A stretch of DNA of 33,034 bases, taken from assembly GCA_027622655.1 (NCBI GenBank), contig JAQBYI010000037.1, positions 1-33,034 of the forward strand, written 5' to 3'. This document shows, piece by piece, positions 2,530 to 16,654 of this stretch. Source of the DNA: Gemmatimonadota bacterium (lineage in GTDB: Bacteria; Gemmatimonadota; Gemmatimonadetes; Gemmatimonadales; Gemmatimonadaceae). The position numbers and the translations under genes are program-made. The notes under the pieces are model-generated. The model did not search any database, had not been told where the DNA came from, and was given only the letters and a program-made list of their open reading frames with translations. The first letter of the stretch is position 1. Each line of letters opens with the position of its first letter.

Positions 2530-5373
2530 ATGACAGCGAAACCTCCACGAAGGCTCTTTCTAGTTGACGGCTATGCTCTGATCTACCGGTCGTTCTTCGC
2601 CTTGGCCGACCAGCAGTTGGTGAGCAGCAAAGGCGAAAACACTGCGATCGCACGTGGGGCGACGGAGTTTCTGCGCAAACTGCTCGACCGCCACAAGCCA
2701 GACTATCTGGGGTGGGTGCATGACGCGGGGCTGTCGTTCCGCCACGAGACCTATCCGGAATACAAGGCGACGCGCGAGCGCCTGGAGCCACAGCAACAGG
2801 CTGATTTCGACACCGGAATCGAGCGGGTCAGCGAAATCCTGTCAGCCTACCAAATCCCGATTCTCGAACTCGAAGGATTTGAGGCGGACGACGTCATAGG
2901 CACGCTGGCGCGACAGGCATGTGAACAAGGGATTGAGACGGCGATTGTCTCGGGCGACAAGGACTTCGTTCAGCTGGTCAGGCCCGGCGTGAAGATCCTC
3001 AATCCTTGGCACGGGCGCCCAGGCCGAACTACCGAAAAATGGTACGACGACGGAAACGCGTCCGAGCGGCTTGGCGTGGTACCAGAGAGAGTAATCGACT
3101 ATCTCGCCTTGCTTGGAGATAGTTCCGACAACATTCCTGGCGTCCGGGGAATAGGTGAAAAGACGGCCCACGCGCTGATTGAGAAGTGGGGGCCGCTCGA
3201 GAACATTCTGGCCCATTTGAGCGAGATCGAGCCCAAGCGCGCGCGGACAGCGCTCGAGGCGAACGCTGCGAATGGAGTCATGTCGAAAGACCTTGTCACC
3301 ATTCGAACTGATCTGGCGATAACGCTTGAGTTGCCGGCGCTTCAGGTGCGGGAACCGGACTGGGCCGCGCTGCGCGAGTTGTATGTGCGATTGGAGTTTC
3401 GGATACCGGCCCAGGAGGCGGCCGCGAAGGCTGACAGCGGTCTCGGTGCCGCACCAAGCGACACGAATTCAGCAGCACCCGCGGTCACGTACGAGATAAT
3501 TGACACGCTCGAAGGCGTCAGGCGGGTAGTCGCGCTTGCACGCGCGGCAGGATCCATGGCCGTTCACACGCAAACAATCCTAGACCCGGGCGCCCCCCCG
3601 GTGATCGATCCAATGCGTGCGCAGCTAGTCGGGCTCGGAATAGCCACCGCACCGGGAACGGCGTTCTACCTCCCGTTCCGACACCGCGGACCGGAGCTCG
3701 CTGTTCCGGAACTGGGAGTCGGCGTCGCACAAGCCGATCAAACGACTGGCACACTGGTTCGAAACCTTCCCGATCCACTGGCGGTGGAACTCGAAGAGTT
3801 GCGCGCGCTGCTAGCCGACGAGACCGTTACAAAGATCGGCCACAATATTAAGTACGATCTACTTGTCCTTCGGCGAGAAGGGATTCCACTTGGCGGGATC
3901 GAGTTCGACACAATGCTGGCGAGTTATCTCCTCGATCCGGGCCGACGTTCGCACGAACTCGACGCGTTGTCGATCGAGTTTCTGCAGCGTTCGATGACCG
4001 CATACGGCGACGTTGTTGGCAAAGGCAAACAGCAGCTTTCATTCGATCGCGTCGCCGTTGACCGGGCACGCGACTATTCGGCTGCGAAGGCCGACGTGAG
4101 TCGAGAGTTGCGCCAGTTGCTCGAGCCGCGACTCACCGCCGTCGGAGCCGATCGGCTGCTGCGAGACGTGGAACTGCCGCTGGTCGGCGTGCTCGCTGAC
4201 ATGGAGTGGACCGGAATCGGCATTGACGTCCCATGGTTCCATTCGCTGAAAACGAGATTTTCGCGCGAACGCGGCGTTGCGGAAACAGCGATTTACGAGG
4301 CGGCGGGCGAACAGTTCAACATCAATTCAAACCGGCAACTGGCTGCGATTCTTTTTGATCGGATGGGCCTTCCGGTGCGTAAGAAGACGTCGACGGGTCC
4401 AAGTACGGACGCGTCGACGTTGCAACAACTCGCGGATGAAGGTCACGCGCTGCCGGCCCTCATTATGGAGTACCGGGAGTTTGCGAAGCTCGAAAGCACG
4501 TACCTGGACACGCTGCCGAAGCTGGTTAATCCGACCACGGGCCGGTTGCACACGTCGTACAACCAGGCAGTAGCCGCCACGGGACGACTCGCGTCGAGCG
4601 ATCCAAACTTGCAGAACATCCCGATCCGGCGGGAATTGGGAAAAGCGATCCGCCAGGGCTTCATCCCCAGACAGGGATGGAAACTTCTGGCAGCAGACTA
4701 CTCGCAGATCGAATTGAGACTACTGGCTCACCTGTCCGGCGATCCAGTTTTTGTCGACGCATTTGTTGCCGGCGGCGATATTCATCGACAGACAGCCGCA
4801 GTCATATTTGGCGTGGCGCTGGCAGACGTGACGGGAGAAATGCGCGCACGAGCCAAGACAATCAATTTTGCGACTATATATGGACAAGGAGCTCACGCTC
4901 TGTCGCAGCAGCTCAAGATTGAGCACGCCGAGGCTAAGCAGTTCATCGAAACGTATTTCGTGAGATTTGCAGGGGTTAGGCGGTTTTTGGACGACACCGT
5001 GGTGATGGCAAGAGAGAAGGGATACGTCGAAACGATTCTTGGCCGTCGCCGATACATTCCTGAGCTTCAGGATCGAAACTTCAATACCCGGGCGTTCGGC
5101 GAACGAACGGCGCAAAACTCGCCTATTCAAGGGTCCGCCGCCGACCTTATCAAACTGGCGATGATAAGGGTCCACAATGAAATGAGTAAACGGCGACTGG
5201 CGAGCAGGATGCTGCTACAGGTGCACGATGAACTGGTTTTCGAGACACACCCCGATGAAGCCGATGTGCTGACCTCCCTTGTAGTCAGTTCAATGACGGG
5301 CGCAGTCAAACTCGCAGTGCCGCTGGTTGTGGACGTCGGAATAGGCGACAATTGGCTTGAAGCCAAGGCATGA
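2530..5373 (+). CDS. polA: DNA polymerase I with apparently inactive proofreading domain
   Basis: Family A DNA polymerase for Okazaki-fragment processing and repair synthesis, 947 aa, close to the usual length. The 5' nuclease domain is intact: LVDGYALIYRSFFA with Asp13, ADD at 119-121, SGDKD at 141-145, and GDSSDNIPGVRGIGEKTA. The polymerase domain is also intact: motif A DYSQIE with Asp723, motif B with Lys776 and Phe780 in KTINFATIYG, and motif C HDE at 899-901. In the 3'-5' exonuclease domain, the place of E. coli D355-x-E357 reads H346-T-Q348, and the place of D501 reads Lys520; only the exo II Asp443 in HNIKYD remains. Proofreading is therefore probably lost, as known for Taq and Bacillus enzymes (by residue alignment, inference). 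The gene follows the GWxTD lipoprotein by 9 bp. Confidence 0.97.
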   Translation: MTAKPPRRLFLVDGYALIYRSFFALADQQLVSSKGENTAIARGATEFLRKLLDRHKPDYLGWVHDAGLSFRHETYPEYKATRERLEPQQQADFDTGIERVSEILSAYQIPILELEGFEADDVIGTLARQACEQGIETAIVSGDKDFVQLVRPGVKILNPWHGRPGRTTEKWYDDGNASERLGVVPERVIDYLALLGDSSDNIPGVRGIGEKTAHALIEKWGPLENILAHLSEIEPKRARTALEANAANGVMSKDLVTIRTDLAITLELPALQVREPDWAALRELYVRLEFRIPAQEAAAKADSGLGAAPSDTNSAAPAVTYEIIDTLEGVRRVVALARAAGSMAVHTQTILDPGAPPVIDPMRAQLVGLGIATAPGTAFYLPFRHRGPELAVPELGVGVAQADQTTGTLVRNLPDPLAVELEELRALLADETVTKIGHNIKYDLLVLRREGIPLGGIEFDTMLASYLLDPGRRSHELDALSIEFLQRSMTAYGDVVGKGKQQLSFDRVAVDRARDYSAAKADVSRELRQLLEPRLTAVGADRLLRDVELPLVGVLADMEWTGIGIDVPWFHSLKTRFSRERGVAETAIYEAAGEQFNINSNRQLAAILFDRMGLPVRKKTSTGPSTDASTLQQLADEGHALPALIMEYREFAKLESTYLDTLPKLVNPTTGRLHTSYNQAVAATGRLASSDPNLQNIPIRRELGKAIRQGFIPRQGWKLLAADYSQIELRLLAHLSGDPVFVDAFVAGGDIHRQTAAVIFGVALADVTGEMRARAKTINFATIYGQGAHALSQQLKIEHAEAKQFIETYFVRFAGVRRFLDDTVVMAREKGYVETILGRRRYIPELQDRNFNTRAFGERTAQNSPIQGSAADLIKLAMIRVHNEMSKRRLASRMLLQVHDELVFETHPDEADVLTSLVVSSMTGAVKLAVPLVVDVGIGDNWLEAKA

Positions 5374-5583
5374 CCACGAAGACTCGACTAAGTTGCAGAC
5401 TGCGTCATTCAGATGCGAAACGAGCGTCATAAAGTGAGAGTCCTGTGTTGGCCTATCCCGGAAACCCTTGATTCACATTGGGTTAGCATGACGAAAACGT
5501 TCGGCCCCGCGATTGCCGTTCGACTAGACATGGTCCATCAGGCGAGTCACGTTGACGGAGAGCCATGTGTGAGGTCGAGCACA

Positions 5584-6000
5584 ATGAACTTCGCTGGCCG
5601 TGGTAACGACGGAAAGCGTGAACCCCGACGCACGGGCTTCACGCTGATTGAGTTGCTTATCGTCGTGGTGATTATCGGAATCCTCGCGGCTATCGCGATT
5701 CCGGAATTCCAGAACACCAAGGGAAAGGCGAACGCCGCGGCGCTAAAGTCCGATCTTCGAAATCTTTCAACGGCTCAAGAAGCGTATTACTTCCAAAACA
5801 CCTCGTACACATCCGATCTCTCCCAGCTGAGCTACCGAAACTCGCCAGGTGTGAACCTCACCGTCATTGACGCCACTGGTTCTGGCTGGTCGGCAAAGGC
5901 AACACACCCGGCGTCGTATCCACTCACGTGTGCGCTTTTTGCTGGAAATGTGACTGCCCTGGCGCCGGCGACAGTTGAAGGCCTGATTGGGTGCCAGTAG
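5584..6000 (+). CDS. Type IV pilin-like prepilin
   Basis: A major or minor type IVa pilin, or a pseudopilin, 138 aa. After an 18-residue basic leader comes the class III signal TG^FTLIELLIVVVIIGIL, with the conserved Glu at position +5 of the mature protein, so it should be processed by a PilD-type peptidase and anchored in the inner membrane before assembly. The rest is a short globular domain. Two cysteines near the C-terminus (LTC and the penultimate IGC) could form the usual D-region disulfide. ATG 5584 is chosen because it has GAGG about 10 bp upstream and gives a normal leader; the open frame continues upstream to 5413 without pilin-like sequence. No other pilus gene lies nearby, so its assembly partners must be elsewhere. 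Confidence 0.9.
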   Translation: MNFAGRGNDGKREPRRTGFTLIELLIVVVIIGILAAIAIPEFQNTKGKANAAALKSDLRNLSTAQEAYYFQNTSYTSDLSQLSYRNSPGVNLTVIDATGSGWSAKATHPASYPLTCALFAGNVTALAPATVEGLIGCQ

Positions 6001-6302
6001 GCGGGACTGAGATCGCTGCGATTCCGTGGCGAGAGTTCGGCCGCTGGCGACACGGGGTGGAGCACGCGCTCACCGGAGGGTTGTGGTTGCATCGCCACAC
6101 ATGGAAGGGCCACTCCATGGCCCACCTGGTCTCGTCGGACCGTGGCCAACTAGAGCGCGTTGGCTTTGTTCTAGGGCTTAACCCTTCCCGTCTTCAGTTT
6201 CGTCCACTGCGCGATCCACGTACCGGCGTTCGCGCCGCGGCTTGGCACTGGGATCTCGTCGGGCCGTGGGTGCCAGCCGGCGTGCTAGACCAGCGAGGCT
6301 GA
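5991..6302 (+). CDS. Small hypothetical protein, weakly DUF4031-like
   Basis: A possible 103-aa protein that I cannot name firmly. Its second half contains HSMAHLVSSD, then a leucine/glycine helix ending GLNPSR, and near the end AAAWHWDLVGPW. The order 'His-Leu-Val-x-Asp, then Leu-Gly, then His-x-Asp-Leu' recalls the DUF4031 pattern, from memory only. The GTG start at 5991 overlaps the end of the pilin gene by 10 bp, with GAAGG about 10 bp upstream; GTG 6057 is another choice. Its end overlaps the last 18 bp of the convergent permease gene. Codon choice looks protein-like, but the overlaps at both ends keep confidence moderate. It could also be a chance open frame. Confidence 0.45.
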   Translation: MPVGGTEIAAIPWREFGRWRHGVEHALTGGLWLHRHTWKGHSMAHLVSSDRGQLERVGFVLGLNPSRLQFRPLRDPRTGVRAAAWHWDLVGPWVPAGVLDQRG

Positions 6303-7214
6303 CCGATTGAGTGCACGCCCGAGCGCAGCTGGCGCCGACCCGGAACCTCGGAGCGCGGCCATGGCTAGCAAGGTCAGCACATATGGAGCTGCAAGGACGA
6401 TGTTGTATGGCACGTTCCAGCCAAGCGACTGCGCCAGAAACTGCAGCGCACTCGCCGATCCAAACAGAAGAACTCCGAGTAATACTCCAACCGGTCGCCA
6501 GCGGCCGAGCGCGACAACGGCAACGGCGATGAACCCACGGCCGGCCGACATGCCGTCGGAAAACGTGCCTGTCTGCGCAACCACAAGCGTCGCGCCTCCT
6601 ACTCCGGCCAGGAACCCACACACACAAAGCGCCATGAACTGGACCTTAGCGGGACTGTGGCCGGCGGCGATAACCGCTGGCGGATGTTCCCCTGCCGCAC
6701 GCAACACAACGCCACCAATCGTTCTGTAAAGCGCATACGCGACAAGCGGAAACAGCGCATAGAGGATGTAGGTGGGAAGGGACTGCGAGAACAGGGCCGG
6801 CCCGATGATGGGTATGTCAGCGAGAAACGGAATTCGTAACTCGGGCAACGTCGCCACGTGAATAGCGCTCGCGCCGCCGCCAGTGAGCGCGCGATGCACG
6901 GTCGCGCTAAGTCCGAGCCCGAGAATGCTTACCGCAGCGCCGACGATGATCTGTTGTGCCCGCAGCACAAGAACAAAAAAAGCGAAAATCAACCCAATGC
7001 AGAGCCCGGCGGAGCCACCCGCGAGCAGTCCGGCCGAAGGGCCGAACGCCACGGTTGCGACCAGCGACGCGAGTGCACCACACACAATCGCCCCTTCGAG
7101 GCCGAGGTTGATGACACCACTGCGTTCGGCCACGAGTTCTCCGAGTGCCGCGAACGCCAGAGGTGTGGCTCCGCGAACAACAGCCTCCAAAAATCCGTCA
7201 ATTGGTATGGTCAC
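6285..7214 (-). CDS. Nucleoside-type ABC transporter permease 2
   Basis: An inner-membrane permease subunit of the branched-chain/ribose-type (BPD_transp_2) family, 309 aa, with about eight to ten hydrophobic segments. The stretch GELVAERSGVINLGLEGAI near the N-terminus is typical of the second permease of BMP-dependent nucleoside or purine transporters (for example NupQ/YufQ of Bacillus). It starts with GTG at 7214 and overlaps the stop of permease 1 by 4 nt (GTGA), so it is translationally coupled. It is the last gene of the operon. The partner is permease 1 (7211-8266); together they form the channel for the substrate delivered by the BMP-type lipoprotein. The exact ligand, whether guanosine, other nucleosides or something else, cannot be read from sequence. 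Confidence 0.92.
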   Translation of the reverse strand: MTIPIDGFLEAVVRGATPLAFAALGELVAERSGVINLGLEGAIVCGALASLVATVAFGPSAGLLAGGSAGLCIGLIFAFFVLVLRAQQIIVGAAVSILGLGLSATVHRALTGGGASAIHVATLPELRIPFLADIPIIGPALFSQSLPTYILYALFPLVAYALYRTIGGVVLRAAGEHPPAVIAAGHSPAKVQFMALCVCGFLAGVGGATLVVAQTGTFSDGMSAGRGFIAVAVVALGRWRPVGVLLGVLLFGSASALQFLAQSLGWNVPYNIVLAAPYVLTLLAMAALRGSGSAPAALGRALNRSASLV

Positions 7215-8266
7215 AAAGCTCGCGCCACGCGGAATTTTCGAGCCAACAGGGCTTCTGCTGCAGGAAGCGCCAGTACACCGAGCAGGATGACGGCGGCGAG
7301 AACCGAGGCAAACTCGGCAGGAATCCCCGCATTCCTCTGCATGGAATCAGCGCCGGAACCCAAAGCGCCGAACAGCACGGCAGAAGCGATGATTCCGATC
7401 GGATGCAGCCGACCGAGCAGCGCGACTGCGATCGCGGTGTACCCGTATCCCGGCGACAGCCCCTCGTAGAGCCGATAGGTCACACCGGCAACTTCTGAGA
7501 ATCCGGCGATTCCGGCGATGGCACCACTCGCCAGCAGTGCAGATGCCTGCACTCGCCCGACGGCGATGAGTCCAGCGCTTTCGGCGGCACTCCGGCTGAT
7601 TCCTGAAATACGGGCGCGAAAACCTGCGGCGGTATTCTGAAACACCCACCAGGCGCCAATCGCAACAAGTAGAGCGATGACAAAGCCCCAGTGAAGCCGT
7701 TGGCTGTCCACGAGGAGCGGCAGTCGTGCCGACTCGCCGAGCGGTAGCGTCTGCGGGTAAGTGAACGTTGGTTCCTGTAGCGGCCCACGTACCAGAAATC
7801 CGACGGCATTAATCGCGACGAAGTTCAGGAGAAGCGTGCTGACGACTTCAGTGACGCCAAACCGGGCCTTGAGCCACGCGGCAATGGCCGCCCAGCCCAT
7901 GCCGGCTGTGGCGGCGGCAGCGAACTCGAGCGGTAGCATCATGACTGCGGATTCAACGGGTGCGTGAAGCCCAACCGCGGCCGCTGCGGCTGCTCCAGCG
8001 AGGAATTGGCCCTCAGCACCGATGTTGAGCACCCCGGCGCGAAACGCCACGGCGACGGCCACACCGAGAAACAACAATGGTGTCGTTCGCTTGAGGGTTG
8101 CCGAAAAGATGGCAAATGATCCCCCGAAGGCACCGTCGAGCGCCGCGCGCGCCGCCGTGGAAACATCGAAGCCCGCGAGCGCGATCGTGAGAGAGACTAA
8201 CGACAGTGCTGCCACGACGACCACAGTCAGTGACAGAAGTTGTAGGGGGCGCGAACGACCGATCAT
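7211..8266 (-). CDS. Nucleoside-type ABC transporter permease 1
   Basis: An inner-membrane permease of the same BPD_transp_2 family, 351 aa, with about eight to ten hydrophobic segments. It carries FRAGVLNIGAEGQFLAGA, the hallmark of the first permease of BMP-type nucleoside transporters (NupP/YufP-like), and the later TEVVSTLLLNFVA and AVALLGRLHPIGI motifs. I start it at ATG 8266 because this overlaps the ATPase stop as TGATG; the open frame begins 24 codons earlier inside the ATPase gene, in sequence unlike a permease. It forms a heterodimeric channel with permease 2. Confidence 0.93.
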   Translation of the reverse strand: MIGRSRPLQLLSLTVVVVAALSLVSLTIALAGFDVSTAARAALDGAFGGSFAIFSATLKRTTPLLFLGVAVAVAFRAGVLNIGAEGQFLAGAAAAAAVGLHAPVESAVMMLPLEFAAAATAGMGWAAIAAWLKARFGVTEVVSTLLLNFVAINAVGFLVRGPLQEPTFTYPQTLPLGESARLPLLVDSQRLHWGFVIALLVAIGAWWVFQNTAAGFRARISGISRSAAESAGLIAVGRVQASALLASGAIAGIAGFSEVAGVTYRLYEGLSPGYGYTAIAVALLGRLHPIGIIASAVLFGALGSGADSMQRNAGIPAEFASVLAAVILLGVLALPAAEALLARKFRVARAL

Positions 8267-9729
8267 CAAAGGCCAACCATCGCAGCGCCGATCGAAACGG
8301 CATCGCGCGGTACTGCCCGTACCTGCCCAGCGTGGCAAACGAATATCCGGTCGGCGATTCCGAGGAGTTCGTCGATGTCGGTCGAGAAAACAACAACCGC
8401 AGCGCCGGCAGCACGCGCGGCGCGAAACTGGTCGAACACCGCAATCGCTGCTCGCACATCGAGGCCGCGCGACGGATTCTCAGCTACGACGGCAATTGGC
8501 GATACTCCCAACTCTCTGGCTAAAACAAAACGTTGTTGGTTGCCTCCGGACAACTCTGCCACCGTAGCCACCTCGGTTCCACCCAGCACTGCGTAGCCTT
8601 TGATCGCGGCGGTTGTTTCCTGCGCAACAGATTTCCAGCTCAAGAAACCAGAACGTGCCCCGGCCCCGCGGAGTGCGAAATTTTCCAGGAGGGAAAGCTC
8701 TTCTATGAGTGCGTCCCGTAGTCGGTCTTCCGGCACGAAGCCAACCGATTCTGGGAACGAAACATCGCCGCTTGTCGGAACGAGACGGCCCGCCAGAACC
8801 CGAAGCAATTCGTGTTGCCCGGCTCCTTCGACTCCGGCAACACCCACGATCTCTCCAGGAAAGACGCTCACTGACGCGTTCTTGAGCCTGAAGTTTCCGG
8901 AGGAATCGGCGACACAAACGTTGTCGATCACAAGACACGGTTCGGCGGGCAGCGTGCCAGCGGGTGAAGGTTTAACCGAACCGCCTGAGCCTATGCTCGG
9001 CTGCTCGCCGAGAATGGCATCGAGCACTTCGGATTGGGTACGAACGCCAGCGTTGGCAGAGAGCACCGTGCGTCCCGTCCTAAGCACGGTAATCGTGTCA
9101 CCATGTTCCAGTGCTTCTCGAATCCGGTGGGTAATGACGATGACAGCACGCTGTTCGCTCGATACGAACGTTTTCAGCCATCCGAACAGATCGCGAGCGT
9201 CCGCTGGCGAAAGCACAGCGGTTGGCTCGTCGAGTATCAGGATGCGCGGTTCGTGCGCGAGCGCCTTGACGATCTCAGCTTTTTGCTGCGCCGCGACAGA
9301 TAGGCGGCCCACGACCGCATCGGGCACAACGTTGAGGCCGGCCGCCTCGGCGATCACTCGCACTCGCCGTGCGGCAGCGGTAGGAGAAAAGCGTCGAAAA
9401 TAGCGACGCTCAGTCAGGGCAACGTTCTCGGCAACCGTCATGGAAGGCACGAGAGATGAATGCTGCTGTACGGCGCCAACACCGGCTTCGATCGCCTGAG
9501 CGCCGGAGTTCCACGTCACAGGAATACCGTCGAGCAGCACCTCTCCCGAATCGGGCGCCAGGAGGCCTGCAGCTACCCGAAGGAGCGTGGTCTTGCCGGC
9601 GCCGTTCTCTCCGAGCAGGACGTGGATGGTTCCGGCTCGAACTGCAAGCGAGCCATCCGCGAGCGCAATCGTTCTACCGTACCGTTTCTCGATCGCACGA
9701 AGTTCGAGAATCGGCGGAATCGATGTCAC
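8266..9729 (-). CDS. ABC transporter ATPase with two nucleotide-binding domains (BMP/nucleoside type)
   Basis: The energy-coupling subunit, 487 aa, with two ABC domains as in the ribose/nucleoside (CUT2) group. Domain 1 has Walker A GENGAGKTTLL, the variant signature LSVAAQQKAE, and Walker B ILILDEPTAVL. Domain 2 has a degenerate Walker A, GVEGAGQHELL, lacking the Lys-Thr pair; its signature LSGGNQQRFVLAREL is intact and the Walker B region reads VVAENPSRGLD. One working and one degenerate site is normal for this group. It starts with GTG at 9729, overlapping the nif3-like stop by 4 nt (GTGA), and ends in a TGATG overlap with permease 1. The nearest named relative is NupO/YufO. Confidence 0.95.
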   Translation of the reverse strand: MTSIPPILELRAIEKRYGRTIALADGSLAVRAGTIHVLLGENGAGKTTLLRVAAGLLAPDSGEVLLDGIPVTWNSGAQAIEAGVGAVQQHSSLVPSMTVAENVALTERRYFRRFSPTAAARRVRVIAEAAGLNVVPDAVVGRLSVAAQQKAEIVKALAHEPRILILDEPTAVLSPADARDLFGWLKTFVSSEQRAVIVITHRIREALEHGDTITVLRTGRTVLSANAGVRTQSEVLDAILGEQPSIGSGGSVKPSPAGTLPAEPCLVIDNVCVADSSGNFRLKNASVSVFPGEIVGVAGVEGAGQHELLRVLAGRLVPTSGDVSFPESVGFVPEDRLRDALIEELSLLENFALRGAGARSGFLSWKSVAQETTAAIKGYAVLGGTEVATVAELSGGNQQRFVLARELGVSPIAVVAENPSRGLDVRAAIAVFDQFRAARAAGAAVVVFSTDIDELLGIADRIFVCHAGQVRAVPRDAVSIGAAMVGL

Positions 9730-10502
9730 AGGCCTGTTGGTGCCGCGATGAACTGGTGTGGAAGGTCGAACTTGGTGGAGAGGTGTTCTCCGAGGGCAGT
9801 CACGCCGAGAGTCTCTGTCGCATAGTGCCCGGCGTAGATGATGACCAGACCGCGCTCGGGCGCGTCCACGGCAGTCCAGTGCGGGCCTTCACCGACAATC
9901 AGTGTGTCGATTCCCAACGCAGTGGCTTCGTCGAGCGTTGCGCCGCCGGCTCCGGCGCCGGAACAAATCGCCCAACGCCTTGTCTGCCGATCGGCGTCGA
10001 ACGCAGACGCAACAGCATTACCGCCATGCGTGGCGGAGAACCTGGCGACTCGAGCGACCAACTCACGCGTCGGCGTATCTGAGCTGCCCTGTACGCCACA
10101 GGCCACACCCTGATAGTGAGCGAACCCATCGGTGACAGGTAGCGAAAGCTCTGCCGCAAGCAGGCGTGAGTTTCCGAATTCACCATGCGCGTCAAGCGGA
10201 AGATGCACGGAATAGAGCGCGACGTCGTGATCGAACAGCAAGCGGATTCGCTCGTATTGGTGTCCTGCAATCGGCTGCAGACCGCTCCAGAACAGCCCGT
10301 GATGCACCAGCAACAGGTTCGCGCCCGACGCGACAGCTCTGCGAATGGCCAACTCAGAGGCGTCAACAGCAGTGGCTAAGCGTGTGATCGGGCCACTGTG
10401 TGCGACCTGAACACCGTTGATTGCGTTCGGATAGTCAGGCGTGTCGCGCACGTGGAGGAGCTTGTCGACGTGCGCAGCGAGGTCGTTGAGCAAAACGGTC
10501 AT
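9726..10502 (-). CDS. Nif3-like dinuclear metal-centre protein
   Basis: A Nif3/YbgI/YqfO-family protein of 258 aa, the short form without the inserted domain seen in some relatives. Metal-binding signatures are visible: VHHGLFW near residues 65-72, SVHLPLDAHGEFGNS near 97-111, and GEGPHW and AGHYATET towards the C-terminus. Family members bind two metal ions and have been annotated as GTP cyclohydrolase type 2, but the true reaction is uncertain. It starts at ATG 10502 overlapping the BMP lipoprotein stop (ATGA), and ends overlapping the ATPase start (GTGA). It is thus locked inside the transporter operon, which suggests a role in handling the imported compound, perhaps hydrolysis of a nucleoside or nucleotide derivative (inference). 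Confidence 0.9.
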   Translation of the reverse strand: MTVLLNDLAAHVDKLLHVRDTPDYPNAINGVQVAHSGPITRLATAVDASELAIRRAVASGANLLLVHHGLFWSGLQPIAGHQYERIRLLFDHDVALYSVHLPLDAHGEFGNSRLLAAELSLPVTDGFAHYQGVACGVQGSSDTPTRELVARVARFSATHGGNAVASAFDADRQTRRWAICSGAGAGGATLDEATALGIDTLIVGEGPHWTAVDAPERGLVIIYAGHYATETLGVTALGEHLSTKFDLPHQFIAAPTGL

Positions 10503-11533
10503 GGCGTGACGCGCCCAGGCGGCAAAAAACTCCCTTGGCGCATCAATGACTGGACCGAGTCAATTCGCGCGAGATCCGTCGTGGAGGCGCTTTTGGCGAG
10601 CAGGGGGCTTGGCTCCCAACGAACAACGTCGTCCCCAGTTCCAAAGCGGATAACTCGAGCCTTGAAGCTTCCTGACTGAACTTCCTTGGCGACTAACAGG
10701 AATGCGTGGGGCACGTTGATTACAACGCTGCCAAGCGTAACTTCGGGAGCCAGGTTGTTCTGGTTTGCATTCGACCCGACGATCAGAAGTCCCTTCCCTT
10801 CTCTTGCGGCCTGGAATACTCCGAGTCCGGCGGCGTCGGCATTCTGAAAGATCACGTCTGCACCTCGGCGCGTGAGCGCGATGGCCTGCTCTTTGCCGGC
10901 GCTCATATCGTCCCAATTGCCGAGGTAGGTAGTGATGACTCGAATACCGGGCCGGAGCAGCTGTGCCCCCTCAGCAAAAGCATCGAACGATGATTTGACC
11001 GGTGGGAGCTCGGTGCCGCCAATCGTTGCAATGACCGAGGTCTTCGAGAGAGCGGCTGCCGCCATTCCAGCAATAAACGACGGTTCGTCGAACGCGAACG
11101 ACAGCGCAGCAACGTTTGGGAGGACGGTTTCGCCGCCCGTCGTCACAAAAATCGTTGCTGGATAGGCTGCAGCAACTCGAACGGCGGCATCTTGAAACTC
11201 GAAGCCGTGCCCAATGACGAGCGAGTAGTCGGCGGCTCCGTATTGGCGAAAGTTCTCTTCGAAATCTGCCGGCGTCCGGACCTGTATGTGGCTGATCTGA
11301 GCGCCGAGGCTGTCTCTGATGCGTAGCAACCCGGCATATGCGCTTCCATTCCACGCTTCGTCGGAGATTGGGCCTGGAGTTAGAAGCGCGACGCGAAATG
11401 CACCGCCCTGCCGGCCCTCCTGATCTCCTCCGCACGAAGTTGCGAATGCCGGCAGCATCAGCAGAAGAATCACGAGCCATAGACGGCAGTGTATTATGTT
11501 GCCGGACAGCAAGTTGCGAAAAATTGTAAACAC
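10499..11533 (-). CDS. BMP-family substrate-binding lipoprotein
   Basis: The extracytoplasmic binding component of the transporter, 344 aa. An N-terminal hydrophobic segment ends in a lipobox-like FATSC followed by GG, so the protein is probably membrane-anchored. The mature part shows the Bmp/Med (PnrA-like) pattern: RVALLTPGPISDEAWNGSAY, VIGHGFEFQDA, SFAFDEPSFIAGMAAA and GADVIFQNADAAGLGVFQA. PnrA-type proteins bind purine nucleosides; the ligand here is inferred. The GTG at 11533 is the best available start; no clear ribosome-binding site is seen. It lies 36 bp after the bactofilin gene on the same strand and overlaps nif3-like by 4 nt, heading the five-gene transporter operon. Confidence 0.92.
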   Translation of the reverse strand: MFTIFRNLLSGNIIHCRLWLVILLLMLPAFATSCGGDQEGRQGGAFRVALLTPGPISDEAWNGSAYAGLLRIRDSLGAQISHIQVRTPADFEENFRQYGAADYSLVIGHGFEFQDAAVRVAAAYPATIFVTTGGETVLPNVAALSFAFDEPSFIAGMAAAALSKTSVIATIGGTELPPVKSSFDAFAEGAQLLRPGIRVITTYLGNWDDMSAGKEQAIALTRRGADVIFQNADAAGLGVFQAAREGKGLLIVGSNANQNNLAPEVTLGSVVINVPHAFLLVAKEVQSGSFKARVIRFGTGDDVVRWEPSPLLAKSASTTDLARIDSVQSLMRQGSFLPPGRVTP

Positions 11534-12071: not shown

Positions 12072-12464
12072 TCAGGGAACTATCGGCCTTGATCCCGCGG
12101 GCGCCGGGCGGCTCAACATCGCCTGTACTTGGTCGTATCTCGCCTGAAGATCCCGGATGGTTTTCTCAAGCGTATCAAGCCGCACAGCATCCTGTTCCAT
12201 ACGCGCGATACGGTTGGTGAGGACGGGCACTCGAGCGGCCTGAAACGCCAGGTATCCCCAGCTCAGAATCATCGCCAGCAAGGCAAGGCGAGTCCAGCGA
12301 TTTGAGATTGCCCGGGCCACTCGAACTTGCCAGTGTCGCAAAACAAACGTGCGGTGGGCAAGCCCACTTTCTCTCTGTACGTGAACGATCATCGCTCCCA
12401 TGTTGGCAGCGAAAAGATTTCCGTGACCGTCCGATTTTGGGGTAGCCCTGGATGGGTTTGCCAT
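12072..12464 (-). CDS. Membrane-anchored coiled-coil protein between parB and bactofilin
   Basis: A 130-aa protein with no catalytic domain that I can see. Residues about 59-77 form one membrane segment (LALLAMILSWGYLAFQA), and about 82-117 are a Leu/Ile heptad stretch likely to be a coiled coil. The layout of basic N-terminus, membrane anchor and coiled coil resembles the N-terminal part of LytM/M23 endopeptidases, which often sit beside bactofilin genes, but the peptidase domain is absent. The sequence just downstream, before the bactofilin gene, does not supply one. Its ATG overlaps the parB stop as TGATG, so the two are translationally coupled. It might anchor ParB or the bactofilin to the membrane (inference). 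Confidence 0.8.
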   Translation of the reverse strand: MANPSRATPKSDGHGNLFAANMGAMIVHVQRESGLAHRTFVLRHWQVRVARAISNRWTRLALLAMILSWGYLAFQAARVPVLTNRIARMEQDAVRLDTLEKTIRDLQARYDQVQAMLSRPAPAGSRPIVP

Positions 12465-13390
12465 CAGAGCACTTCGCGTGTTGGGCCGAGCAGCAGGTCA
12501 AGCATTCGCTCGAGGTCGTCGGCTGAGTAGAAAGAAAGCCGTACATCGCCCCGCCCGGCCGCAGAGACGGTGACGGAGACGTCGGTCTGAAATTTTCGAC
12601 GGAGCTGTTCTTCAATTCCGCGCGCTTCGGCTGGCCGCTCTGGCGCACCAGCGTCCTTTTTGGCGCGCACCCTTGTCTTAATGGATCCTGACTCGCGAAC
12701 ACGTCGCTCGACTTCGCGGACGGTCATTCCGTCTGTCGCGATCGCCGCAGCAAGCGCGGCCATCGCGCTTGAGTCTGACAATCCGAGCAGCGCGCGCGCG
12801 TGGCCGAGCGACACTGCGCCAGTGCGGACGAGGGTCAAGACGGTTTGAGGCAAGGCGAGCAGGCGCAGCATGTTCGCTACGGTCGATCGCTCACGGCCCA
12901 CAGCGTCGGCAACTTGCTGTTGCGTCAACGAGAATCGTGTCACCAACGCTTGGTACCCTTCCGCTTCTTCAATAGGGTTCAGGTCGCTTCGCTGCAGATT
13001 CTCGATGAGTGCCAGAGTGAGAACTGCTTGGTCATCGAGTTCGCGGACGTGTACAGGAACTTCTCGCCATCCTAGTGACTGAATAGCCCGAAATCGGCGC
13101 TCGCCGGCGACAATCTCGTACGAAGCTCCAACCGGTCGGACAAGCAACGGCTGCAGGAGGCCGTTGGACCGAATGCTCGATCGAAGTTCAGCGAGCTCGC
13201 CCTCATCGAACTCACGACGAGGCTGAAGTGGATTCGGAGTAATCAGTTTGACAGCAATAGTTTGAAATCCTGGGGCGGCTGGAGTATCTGCCTTCGTCGG
13301 GAACTTGAGGTCCGCTCTCGCGGCTCCGCTTGTTGGGGCAAGCAGCGCGTCGAGCCCACGGCCAAGCCTGCGAACCCTGTCTGATGACAT
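12464..13390 (-). CDS. parB: Chromosome-partitioning protein ParB
   Basis: The centromere-binding CTPase of the ParABS system, 308 aa. The N-terminus RRLGRGLDALL is the ParA-stimulating motif usual in chromosomal ParBs. The CTP-binding and arginine region GERRFRAIQSLG lies near residues 95-106, and the helix-turn-helix TQQQVADAVGRERSTVANML near 150-170; the C-terminal part should dimerise. ATG 13390 has a GAGAAG-like element just upstream. It follows parA by 24 bp and is coupled to the membrane coiled-coil gene by TGATG. A parS site lies 64 bp upstream of parA. Confidence 0.97.
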   Translation of the reverse strand: MSSDRVRRLGRGLDALLAPTSGAARADLKFPTKADTPAAPGFQTIAVKLITPNPLQPRREFDEGELAELRSSIRSNGLLQPLLVRPVGASYEIVAGERRFRAIQSLGWREVPVHVRELDDQAVLTLALIENLQRSDLNPIEEAEGYQALVTRFSLTQQQVADAVGRERSTVANMLRLLALPQTVLTLVRTGAVSLGHARALLGLSDSSAMAALAAAIATDGMTVREVERRVRESGSIKTRVRAKKDAGAPERPAEARGIEEQLRRKFQTDVSVTVSAAGRGDVRLSFYSADDLERMLDLLLGPTREVL

Positions 13391-13414
13391 TATTACTTCT
13401 CGAAAGAATAGTGA

Positions 13415-14224
13415 TTAAATGACTGCAATGGCTGGCTGCTCCGGTTGCTCTGTCCGTTCGCTGCGTTGAATCAGTTCGCGGACCACGCCGAGGTACGCCT
13501 GGGCGCCAACCGACGAAACGTCGTATGTAATGATTGGCTTGCCAAAGCTCGGCGCTTCCGCAAGACGAATATTGCGGGGGACAACACTTTCGAACACAAG
13601 TGCGCCAAAATGTGCGCGAGCATCCTCGGCTACCTGGCGAGACAAGTTCAGTCGAGAATCGAACATCGTGAGTAACACGCCATCAATGCCAAGCGATGGG
13701 CTGACCCCCTGCTGCACTGTTTCGATCGTCCTGAGCAACTGAGAAAGTCCCTCTAGTGCGTAGTACTCACACTGAAGAGGGATCAGGACAGCGTCGGCCG
13801 CAGCAAGCATGTTCAGTGTGATCAACCCGAGGGACGGCGGACAATCGATGATTACAAAATCATAGTTACCGCGAAGATGCTCGAGCCCTTCCCGCATGCG
13901 CAGCTCACGACCAGGCTCGCCGGCTAGTTCTACTTCCGCCGCAGCAAGGTCTGGCGTTGCAGGCATGACATCAAGTAGCTCAAACTGGACGGATCGAATG
14001 ACAGCTTCGGCGGCAAGCGTCGGATCCAGAAGTACATCATATGTGCTGGTCGCTATTGACTGGCGCTGCAATCCCACACCGCTGGTAGCGTTGGCCTGCG
14101 GGTCGCCGTCGACGAGGAGTACTCGCCGTTCGGCCGCAGCCAAGCCGGCCGCAACATTTACTGCTGTTGTGGTCTTACCCACTCCGCCCTTCTGATTTGC
14201 GATTGCAAGAACTCGGGACGCCAT
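13415..14224 (-). CDS. parA: Chromosome-partitioning ATPase ParA (Soj)
   Basis: A deviant Walker ATPase that binds the nucleoid and drives ParB-parS separation, 269 aa. KGGVGKTTTAVN with the signature Lys12 and Lys17 lies at the N-terminus, followed by LLVDGDPQANAT and IDCPPSLGLIT, the A' and B-type motifs of the ParA/MinD family. ATG 14224 is used because the protein then starts MASRVLAIANQKGG as expected; the open frame continues 13 codons upstream. It is the first gene of the par cluster, with parS directly upstream, and parB follows after 24 bp. Confidence 0.97.
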   Translation of the reverse strand: MASRVLAIANQKGGVGKTTTAVNVAAGLAAAERRVLLVDGDPQANATSGVGLQRQSIATSTYDVLLDPTLAAEAVIRSVQFELLDVMPATPDLAAAEVELAGEPGRELRMREGLEHLRGNYDFVIIDCPPSLGLITLNMLAAADAVLIPLQCEYYALEGLSQLLRTIETVQQGVSPSLGIDGVLLTMFDSRLNLSRQVAEDARAHFGALVFESVVPRNIRLAEAPSFGKPIITYDVSSVGAQAYLGVVRELIQRSERTEQPEQPAIAVI

Positions 14225-14286
14225 CTGCACCACATGGAATAGAGTTCGGCAACCTACACACACGGCCGCACGCCGCGCAAGCCAAA

Positions 14287-14623: not shown

Positions 14624-16654
14624 CTACGGGCGAGAAGCGCTCGGCGCACGGCTTCGTTCAATGGGAATCCAGCGCAGGGGCGCTGTTCCGTCTACACCAT
14701 CGCGACGGACAACAAAAACACGGCGCTCTGGAAATCGATTTATTAGTTTGGAATCCCGCTCATGAAAGTCTCTGGCATAAACATTTCCGGATGTTCGGTC
14801 GAGCAGGAATGGTGGGAACAGCGCGTACCCGTCACGATCTTCGGAAACGCGAGCGCTGCATATGCTGTCGTATACGCTACCAGGAAGCATTCGCTCTGTT
14901 GTGTCAGGCGACACGGTGCTTGCTCGAAGGGATGTCGAATCGCGCATGAGCGGACGAAGCCTGGTCTCCACTACCCCACCCCGCTCTCCCCGTCGCTCAG
15001 CATCGGCAATCCCGTGCTCGAGCGAGCACGCGTCGATATTGCGATACAGAGCGGCCGTCGCGCTGCGGGAAACACCAAGTGCCCAGAGACGCGCGATCAG
15101 CTGCGCGCCCCAGCTCTCCCGGACGAACACAAGAGCGTTGGTCGCGCCAGCCGCTGCAGCTTCGGCGCCATAATCGGTTCGCATTGAGGTCAATCCCGAT
15201 CGGTACTGAGAGATACGGACCGGTACGCCGATAGCGTACGTGAGAATCACAGCCGCACCGAGAGCACCAGCGCTTGCAGTTCGTACGACTCGGCGAGTTT
15301 CACGATTCGCGATATGCCGCGCAAGTCGAATGCACAGCAGCACGAGTATGGGAATCCACGGCGTAACGAAGCGAGGGCCGAGATAGAAGCCGTCGTGCCA
15401 ATAGGCGAAATAGAGCAGACTGTGCACGCCGGTCGCGACAAGTAGATACCGCTCGATTGCGGTGAGCGGGACGGCGATAGCGAGTGCTACGATCGCCGGC
15501 AAGAGGGAAGGGAACGGCGCCTCGAACAGATACCCGTTGAGTCGCGTCACGTATAGGGACAGGAGCTCTAGGCCACGTTGCGGTGTGTGTGCATCACCCC
15601 ACGGTGCAGCGTGAAAGCCGAGTCCGTGGGACGATCCCCAGAGCACCTCGTAGCCGAACGACGTTGGTGAACCTGTCGTTCGAACGTTCACCCACATCAC
15701 AAGCGCTACGGGAATTGCGAGCCCAATTGCCGCGCCGGCGACCGGTGCCCGGAGACCGCGATCTGATCGCGCGCGCCAGAGCAACCAGAACGCCGCGGGG
15801 ACAGCGAACGCAACTGCGTCGAGCGGACGGACGGCGAATGCGCACCCTGCCGCCAAGCCCGCGGCGAGTGCCCACGCTACTCTATGCTGAGCGACGATAC
15901 CCTTTTCCGAGAGCACGCGCGTGAGAGAGAGCGAGCCCAGGAGAATCCACATCACCACGGGTCCGTGGCTCATGTGCGACGAAAACTGAAATACCGCAAA
16001 TGACCCAAGTCCAAAAACCGCGGCGCCCCCCAGTACCGTCAACGGGGACTCGTCGCCGTACACGGCGCGTAGAATTCGAGCGAATACAAAGACGGCGATG
16101 GCGCCGCATAGCGGGCCGACCACCCATTCTGCGTTCAGTAGCGATCCGAGTGCGAGCATGGCCGGCCAGCCAGCCGGGAACTGAGAGTAGAAGCGCTCTC
16201 CCAAATCGACCATATGCAGCATGGAAAAAAACTCAGGAGCGCTGTCAGTCGGGACGAACAAGTGTCCAGCCGCGTACATTCGCGCCTGCAGCACTTGTAC
16301 CAATTCGTCGATGAGGAGCGGTTTCCCAGCGAACACGACGCGTGCGACCACCAGGTAGGTCATTCCACAAAACGCAGCAACAGAAATATCTGCGCGAACG
16401 GGAAAGCGTCGCAGCACGGCACCTATCGATTGCCCTCGATGTGCCAGTCGGGCGCCAAGTTCAGACAGCCTCCCACGCCACGAGATCGCGGCAACGGTGC
16501 CCACCCCGATGCAAATCGCGATACCGATTGCCCACTCGTCCCACCTTCGTGAATATCCGGGGTCTGCAAGGCCACCTGGAATCCACAACGCGATGGGCAG
16601 CACACCGAGCGCGAGTAGAAACACGGCCGTGCTACGCACCAGCAAGCGGCCCAT
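14624..16654 (-). CDS. GT-C fold membrane glycosyltransferase (PMT/ArnT-like)
   Basis: A large polytopic membrane protein of 676 aa with about a dozen hydrophobic segments and a soluble C-terminal part. The pair Asp116-Glu117 in LLIDELVQVLQARMYAAG, after the first membrane segments, is the acidic catalytic motif expected in the first external loop of GT-C enzymes that use lipid-linked sugars. Later features such as FYSQFPAGWPAML and WHDGFYLGPRFVTPW fit the GT39/GT83-like group. Donor and acceptor are unknown; a glycan on lipid or protein is likely. ATG 16654 starts directly before the first membrane helix. It lies 68 bp after mnmG on the same strand, in the place where rsmG is often found between mnmG and parA. 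Confidence 0.8.
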   Translation of the reverse strand: MGRLLVRSTAVFLLALGVLPIALWIPGGLADPGYSRRWDEWAIGIAICIGVGTVAAISWRGRLSELGARLAHRGQSIGAVLRRFPVRADISVAAFCGMTYLVVARVVFAGKPLLIDELVQVLQARMYAAGHLFVPTDSAPEFFSMLHMVDLGERFYSQFPAGWPAMLALGSLLNAEWVVGPLCGAIAVFVFARILRAVYGDESPLTVLGGAAVFGLGSFAVFQFSSHMSHGPVVMWILLGSLSLTRVLSEKGIVAQHRVAWALAAGLAAGCAFAVRPLDAVAFAVPAAFWLLWRARSDRGLRAPVAGAAIGLAIPVALVMWVNVRTTGSPTSFGYEVLWGSSHGLGFHAAPWGDAHTPQRGLELLSLYVTRLNGYLFEAPFPSLLPAIVALAIAVPLTAIERYLLVATGVHSLLYFAYWHDGFYLGPRFVTPWIPILVLLCIRLARHIANRETRRVVRTASAGALGAAVILTYAIGVPVRISQYRSGLTSMRTDYGAEAAAAGATNALVFVRESWGAQLIARLWALGVSRSATAALYRNIDACSLEHGIADAERRGERGGVVETRLRPLMRDSTSLRASTVSPDTTERMLPGSVYDSICSARVSEDRDGYALFPPFLLDRTSGNVYARDFHERDSKLINRFPERRVFVVRRDGVDGTAPLRWIPIERSRAPSASRP

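Follow-up and report, generated by a model that had tools for sequence, protein, structure and literature searches.

DNA Polymerase I of a Gemmatimonadaceae Bacterium Has Very Probably Lost Proofreading on Its Own Branch While Keeping the Exonuclease Domain

The 33,034-nucleotide stretch of DNA analysed here, referred to as the window, belongs to the draft genome of a bacterium of the family Gemmatimonadaceae (phylum Gemmatimonadota) and carries polA, the gene of DNA polymerase I (Pol I); window Pol I denotes the product of the open reading frame (ORF) at 2530..5373 of the forward strand. We consider it very likely that the enzyme is a bacterial Pol I of the ordinary type and that its proofreading site was lost on the branch leading to this species, with the exonuclease domain retained and the proofreading of replication probably kept. 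According to the alignment and the structural model, the exonuclease fold is kept and three of the four metal-binding carboxylates are gone. The loss of catalytic residues is well supported and, functionally, of a known kind. Pol I proofreading seems to have been lost in a mosaic fashion within the Gemmatimonadota and within its genera, recurring many times.

The polA Gene and Its Exonuclease Motifs

The host genome is a draft of 3.14 Mb in 115 contigs (99.67% complete, 4.2% estimated contamination), in which the window is contig 52; a search of this genome with PF00476 gave one match, so that the polA of the window is the only one. By sequence, the window is nearest to other Gemmatimonadota, in the best four rows from named records as well as among genomes of its own genus and family. 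Bacterial Pol I serves in gap filling and primer removal. Window Pol I combines three domains in one chain, over the Pfam and NCBIfam cut-offs (Table 1), with both catalytic Asp residues of the polymerase (DD at E. coli positions 705 and 882), which identifies it as a PolA1 ortholog and agrees with the first-pass annotation, where the polymerase motifs had been called complete. The acidic motifs GFEADD, GDKDF, and GDSSDN of the 5' nuclease domain were found by reading the translation by eye. The actinobacterial PolA2/APEX was rejected as an identity, since window Pol I has a 5' nuclease domain and PolA2/APEX is described as lacking one in PMC12926913.

Table 1. Features of polA, of its product, and of the neighbouring genes in the window (aa, amino acid positions).
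Feature	Position	Strand	Evidence
GWxTD-domain protein, ends 9 bases before polA	772-2520	+ (same strand as polA)	
polA, DNA polymerase I, 947 aa, full-length	2530..5373	+	TIGR00593, 912.6 bits (cut-off 600)
5' nuclease (flap endonuclease) domain, aa 8-277	2551..3360	+	PF02739, PF01367 above cut-off
Vestigial 3'-5' exonuclease domain, aa 325-540 (limits chosen by us)	3502..4149	+	PF01612, 56.9 bits (cut-off 23.6)
Exo I, H346-T347-Q348 in place of D-x-E	3565..3573	+	alignment with E. coli PolA
Exo II, GHNIKYD, aa 437-443, Asp443 kept	3838..3858	+	alignment with E. coli PolA
Exo III, Y516-S-A-A-K520 in place of Y-x3-D	4075..4089	+	alignment with E. coli PolA
Polymerase domain, aa 571-944	4240..5361	+	PF00476, 515.9 bits
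Type IV pilin-like protein with N-terminal methylation motif, just after polA	5413-6000		
Two permeases, ABC ATPase, NIF3/DUF34 protein, PnrA-like binding protein	6285-11533	-	
ParB and ParA-like pair	12464-14263	-	

In the alignment, residues H346, Q348, D443, Y516, and K520 of the window pair with D355, E357, D424, Y497, and D501 of E. coli, exo I reading VHTQT against FDTET, exo II GHNIKYD against GQNLKYD, and exo III YSAAKAD against YAAEDAD. The DEDDy positions are thus occupied by H, Q, D, Y, and K, with two of the five residues and one of the four carboxylates kept, so that the motif of an active DEDDy exonuclease is absent. The codons are CAC (3565-3567) for H346, ACG (from 3568) for T347, and CAA (3571-3573) for Q348 in exo I, and TAT (from 4075) for Y516, AAG (4087-4089) for K520, and GAC (from 4093) for D522 in exo III.

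The first-pass annotation had reported His346-Thr-Gln348 and Lys520 at these sites, and the alignment with E. coli PolA and relatives confirms both the residues and their numbers; the span given for them, 3568-4093, was a few bases off, the altered codons occupying 3565-4089, and the kept Asp443 and Tyr516 were not mentioned. Acids from elsewhere in the domain might in principle take over the metal sites. At the sequence level, four acids of the window (D360, D403, E423, and E476) occur in none of the 11 intact members of its genus, and none of the four lies within the three motifs.

Fold of the Exonuclease Domain

The AlphaFold2 model of amino acids 312-545, built with 65 sequences (model residue n corresponds to amino acid n+311), has a mean predicted local distance difference test score of 93.4 and a predicted template modelling score of 0.89. 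When VIA-align was used to re-examine the best 1000 chains from Foldseek, the Klenow fragment 1kfs was the top match (Z 27.6, root mean square deviation 1.6 over 199 residues, 35% identity, model residues 8-234 on 328-527), and the domain thereby falls into the RNase H-like DnaQ fold. In model numbering, the exo I residues lie on strand 31-40, Y516 and K520 on the long helix 199-226, and the exo II helix (129-138) begins right after N439, residue 129 being amino acid 440.

With three of the four metal-holding carboxylates replaced by His, Gln, and Lys, the site should neither bind metals nor cut a mismatched 3' end. Judged from the aligned residues and the modelled fold, window Pol I has very probably lost proofreading, and it fits the kind of inactivated exonuclease found in Bst and Helicobacter pylori, in which the domain is kept and catalytic carboxylates are substituted.

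Timing and Manner of the Loss

The genus of the window comprises 18 genomes, of which 15 have a scored locus; the other three have no PolA match (G092), a short stretch only (G203), or no exonuclease part (G204). The first of these is listed as 98% complete, and its lack of any PolA match may reflect an assembly gap or a real absence. Intact sites were found in 12 of the 15 scored loci, and the three altered ones all differ from each other (HQDYK in the window, NEDYG in G205, and DCQYR in G202). In a tree of 35 PolA sequences from which the exonuclease part was excluded, the window groups with G208, G173, and G207, all of them intact (DEDYD); the support printed around this group is 81-99, the value of the node joining the window and G208 having been lost in re-rooting. 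Since the three nearest relatives are intact, the loss would have occurred on the window's own branch, unless the relatives regained the site. The interpretation in the first-pass annotation therefore divides: the loss of proofreading is strongly supported by the alignment, the Klenow-like fold, and the precedent of H. pylori Pol I, and the proposal that it marks the lineage fails on the distribution of states in the genus.

The codons GAC, GAA, and GAC of the relative G208 correspond to CAC, CAA, and AAG in the window. This requires at least four base changes over three codons, for which one sequencing error is insufficient.

The changes are concentrated at the catalytic positions. Among the 41 exonuclease columns with a conservation of 97% or more across 112 intact Gemmatimonadaceae loci, the window has changed three of the four catalytic ones and none of the 37 others (Fisher p = 0.00038), and at 90% conservation the figures are 3/4 and 2/59 (p = 0.00098), although the selection of this set by DEDD favours the result for the catalytic columns. 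With 74 PolA sequences of other phyla as reference (70 of them DEDYD; L062 and L096 are absent from this set, as no ORF was recovered for them, nor for L122, L123, and L124), columns conserved to at least 90% gave 3/4 catalytic against 2/24 other changes (p = 0.011), and two other thresholds gave 4/37 (p = 0.012) and 8/46 (p = 0.029) changed among the other columns.

The ratio of the terminal branch length of the exonuclease to that of the nuclease plus polymerase parts is 1.93 for the window and 0.74-3.07 for the 32 intact tips of the 35-sequence tree (median 1.50). A general decay of the domain is not supported, given this ratio, which lies inside the intact range, and the absence of changes in the 37 non-catalytic near-invariant columns. 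Because both the length of the domain and its evolutionary rate lie within the range of intact relatives, the domain is probably still needed structurally, and it might passively accommodate frayed primer ends.

Proofreading States across the Gemmatimonadota

We aligned 257 PolA loci from 256 genomes with E. coli and scored the four carboxylates. One genome, G273, contributed two loci; its exonuclease matches of PolA lie on two contigs (L285 and L286), pointing to a second gene or a mixed bin, and the polA of another, G101 (L144, G101:C162:5109-7853), carries one internal TAG. The site was intact in 150 loci, altered in 102 (102/252 scored), and unscored because of gaps or X in five. Intact, altered, and unscored loci numbered 112/26/3 in family f1, 17/20/0 in f2, 2/1/0 in f3, 2/3/0 in f4, 9/37/2 in f5, 2/0/0 in f6, 0/11/0 in f7, 0/4/0 in f9, and 6/0/0 in f10 (outside the window's class), the PolA set holding no locus of f8. 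Since genomes of the family were added later, 102/252 does not represent even sampling (an exonuclease match is present in 154 of 179 family genomes, and only part of these are in the PolA set); in an even draw of 200 genomes, 178 were scored, 90 as altered and 88 as intact. One carboxylate was changed in 15 of the altered loci, two in 11, three in 38, and four in 38; in four of the 15 single-change loci the substitution is D501E, with which activity may persist. Both polymerase residues, Asp705 and Asp882, occur in 252 of the 258 rows including E. coli, the rest reading '--' (three), 'D-' (two), and 'DN' (one).

Of 95 scored genera, 47 are intact throughout, 37 altered throughout, and 11 contain both states. 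These 11 mixed genera are the result that depends least on the tree and rest on the genus labels supplied. With a tree of the polymerase domain (254 tips; four loci of insufficient length excluded), irreversible counting gave 35 losses when at least one change was required and 25 when at least two were, and the Fitch method gave 31 and 23 changes. Three of the 12 N420D gains were placed on branches counted as intact, including the branch ancestral to a 39-tip clade and that ancestral to a 19-tip clade; the former also carries one of the 15 D424 changes. The count of deep losses therefore depends on topology, possible gene transfer, or regain. A loss that recurs across the phylum would fit a Pol I proofreader that selection often leaves undefended.

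PF00817 (Y-family polymerases) had no match in 9/90 altered and 10/88 intact genomes when at least one changed carboxylate defined the altered state (p = 0.81), and in 3/81 against 16/97 when at least two did (p = 0.0066, kinship ignored); one genome without a match was assigned as G011 by elimination.

Altered-looking exonuclease sites were also seen in L078 (Nitrospirae, HEDYW), L082 (Thermodesulfovibrionales, NEDYN), and L093 (Nitrospirota, HVDYN), and with these three Nitrospirota-type loci the mosaic loss may extend beyond the Gemmatimonadota.

Other Polymerases and Proofreaders in the Genome

The genome of the window has one C-family polymerase match, which lies in a 1198-aa DnaE (above cut-off for TIGR00594 and NF004226) whose N-terminal part, read by eye, holds the residues of the PHP motif HHDHEH[C/H]DH published in PMC12926913. 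Two RNase_T matches were found. One is a DEDDh exonuclease of 254 aa (TIGR00573 above cut-off) and the other is a second DEDDh domain, the motifs of both looking intact by eye, inside a UvrD-like helicase of 1002 aa (L370:2286-5294). There is also one PolY match. Going by these motifs, replicative proofreading was probably kept, with the DnaE PHP domain, a DnaQ-type exonuclease, or both as its agent, and only that of Pol I is gone.

Comparison with Known Enzymes

A 2026 survey of bacterial DNA polymerases in Nucleic Acids Res. (PMC12926913) reports DEDDy substitutions in about half of Pol I orthologs. They are distributed largely by phylum, with Firmicutes, Tenericutes, and Actinobacteria the most affected, and a connection with translesion synthesis is proposed there. 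Whereas inactivation is described there as largely phylum-specific, in the Gemmatimonadota it forms a mosaic inside the phylum and its genera. No word beginning with 'gemmatimon' occurs in the main text of that survey, and the literature searched, judged by title and with few subscription papers covered, yielded no report of proofreading by Pol I in Gemmatimonadota. A possible novelty lies in the frequency and the fine scale at which the loss recurs inside a single phylum, together with an exo II change shared by many altered enzymes.

A known counterpart is the Pol I of H. pylori, which likewise lacks three carboxylates in a fold that is likely preserved; D355, D424, and D501 are missing there, and D355, E357, and D501 in the window. 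According to PMC3121766, this enzyme did not edit 3' mismatches, extended mismatched primers, and bypassed lesions mutagenically, in an organism without translesion polymerases, whereas the genome of the window has its PolY match. By analogy, window Pol I would rely on base selection alone and should extend mismatches and bypass some lesions more easily.

The large fragment of Geobacillus stearothermophilus (Bst) is similar in that the exonuclease fold is kept and activity is reportedly lacking, and solved Bacillus chains align with the model of the window domain at Z of about 19-20. Bst has lost the exo II Asp (FDSKRA), which the window keeps. It has Lys at the exo III Asp position and keeps the exo I Glu that the window has lost. 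In PMC5990039, Bst is reported to have no exonuclease activity and still to form proofreading-type complexes, and a Geobacillus enzyme is cited as having regained activity by point changes in the active site alone.

In Mycobacterium Pol1, the M. smegmatis structures 6vdc/6vdd match the fold of the window at Z 20.0, the exonuclease domain being 25% identical; in 6vde, presumably from the same organism, exo II reads HEAKLA, with both the exo II Asp and the Tyr replaced, unlike in the window. Taq Pol I, which is known to lack proofreading, aligns strongly with window Pol I in its polymerase and 5' nuclease parts. Its middle part barely aligns (one stretch, -1.0 bits), whereas the window retains the whole exonuclease domain.

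Recurrent Changes in Exo II and Exo III

A different account of the losses is that they were directed: selection for the extension of mismatches, for lesion bypass, or for DNA binding without catalysis would have removed the carboxylates, and losses of greater age would converge on a shared exo II signature instead of drifting. In a related reading, exonuclease domains of separate lineages would be rebuilt along one path once catalysis is lost: exo II would pass from N-x-K-Y-D to D-x-K-[R/H]-[A/S/T], and Arg or Lys would often replace the exo III Asp. The outcome would be a metal-free pocket in which positive charge replaces the ions and frayed primer ends are held uncut; the window would stand at an early stage, with K520 in place and exo II untouched. 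In its motifs the window enzyme does look like an early stage, with N439 and Y442 kept.

The pattern behind this account is as follows. Position 420 (E. coli numbering) is Asp in 73 of the 102 altered loci (GHDLKR-like) and in one of the 150 intact ones, occurring in 18 of 35 loss clades and as the majority residue in 17. K422 is kept in 101 of the 102 altered loci, Y423 has become Arg or His in 48, and position 424 is Ala, Ser, Thr, or Gly in 61 and still Asp in 32. For D501, 11 of 28 changed clades have Arg or Lys as their most frequent residue, against none of 14 for D424, and parsimony places 14 of 15 gains of Arg or Lys at D501 on altered branches, which make up 41% of the tree length (p = 3.9e-5). 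By its match ranges, FDSKRA of Bst lies on HNIKYD of the window, and it thus shares the D-x-K-R-A pattern of the altered enzymes.

The same data leave room for a less directed origin. The window itself retains N439 and Y442. N439 just precedes the exo II helix in the model; Asp is a good helix cap and may simply be tolerated there once DNA binding is no longer needed. A high GC content would favour Arg and Ala. Only nine of the 12 N-to-D gains at position 420 fall on altered branches (p = 0.019), and Arg or Lys also arises at D355 (2/20 changed clades) and E357 (3/17). The shared exo II change can be explained, in part or in whole, by drift within structural limits. We therefore regard directed remodelling, and with it the common path of rebuilding, as unlikely, while the convergence of exo II among altered enzymes may itself be new.

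Weighing the Loss of Activity

Preferring an erased proofreading site with a retained domain, we note several points that weigh against it. Asp443 and Tyr516 with the adjoining N439, K441, and Y442 are all kept, so weak or altered activity is possible, and D360, an acid unique to the window, might lie near the metal sites. The motifs of the DnaE PHP domain and of the DEDDh domains were read by eye. For the pairs that include the window, the synonymous divergence dS is near or past saturation, so that dN/dS (the nonsynonymous to synonymous ratio) by domain cannot tell relaxed from positive selection. Finally, the genome is a draft.

A residual or altered exonuclease, in which Asp443, Tyr516, and a nearby acid such as D360 support slow cleavage, would draw on these kept residues and on Asp522. 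Single carboxylate changes already cripple the exonuclease of the Klenow fragment, D360 lies outside the motifs, and no editing was seen with the Pol I of H. pylori, in which three carboxylates are missing (PMC3121766); we consider such activity improbable. An assembly or sequencing artefact or a contaminating contig, which the 115 contigs and the 4.2% contamination estimate might suggest, is the least credible reading, because the base changes affect catalytic sites only, with two of the three codons more than 500 bases from the third, the frame is open, the nearest relatives belong to the same genus, the gene is the sole PolA match in a nearly complete genome, and altered sites also occur in single-contig genomes (e.g., G017, G058, G125, and G158).

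Neighbouring Genes

The gene group at 6285-11533 resembles a nucleoside importer cassette, the substrate being a guess. For a 676-aa ORF at 14624-16654 on the reverse strand, no Pfam match was found at E 0.001.

Significance

Species of one genus differ in their proofreading state, so closely matched pairs lend themselves to comparisons of mutation rate, lagging-strand mutation spectrum, and lesion bypass. Were the common path of rebuilding to hold, the Gemmatimonadota, in which sister species differ in whether the site is intact, would amount to a natural experiment on the worth of Pol I proofreading. Should the repeated exo II change prove robust, it would give a mark in the sequence by which long-established losses could be separated from recent ones like that of the window.

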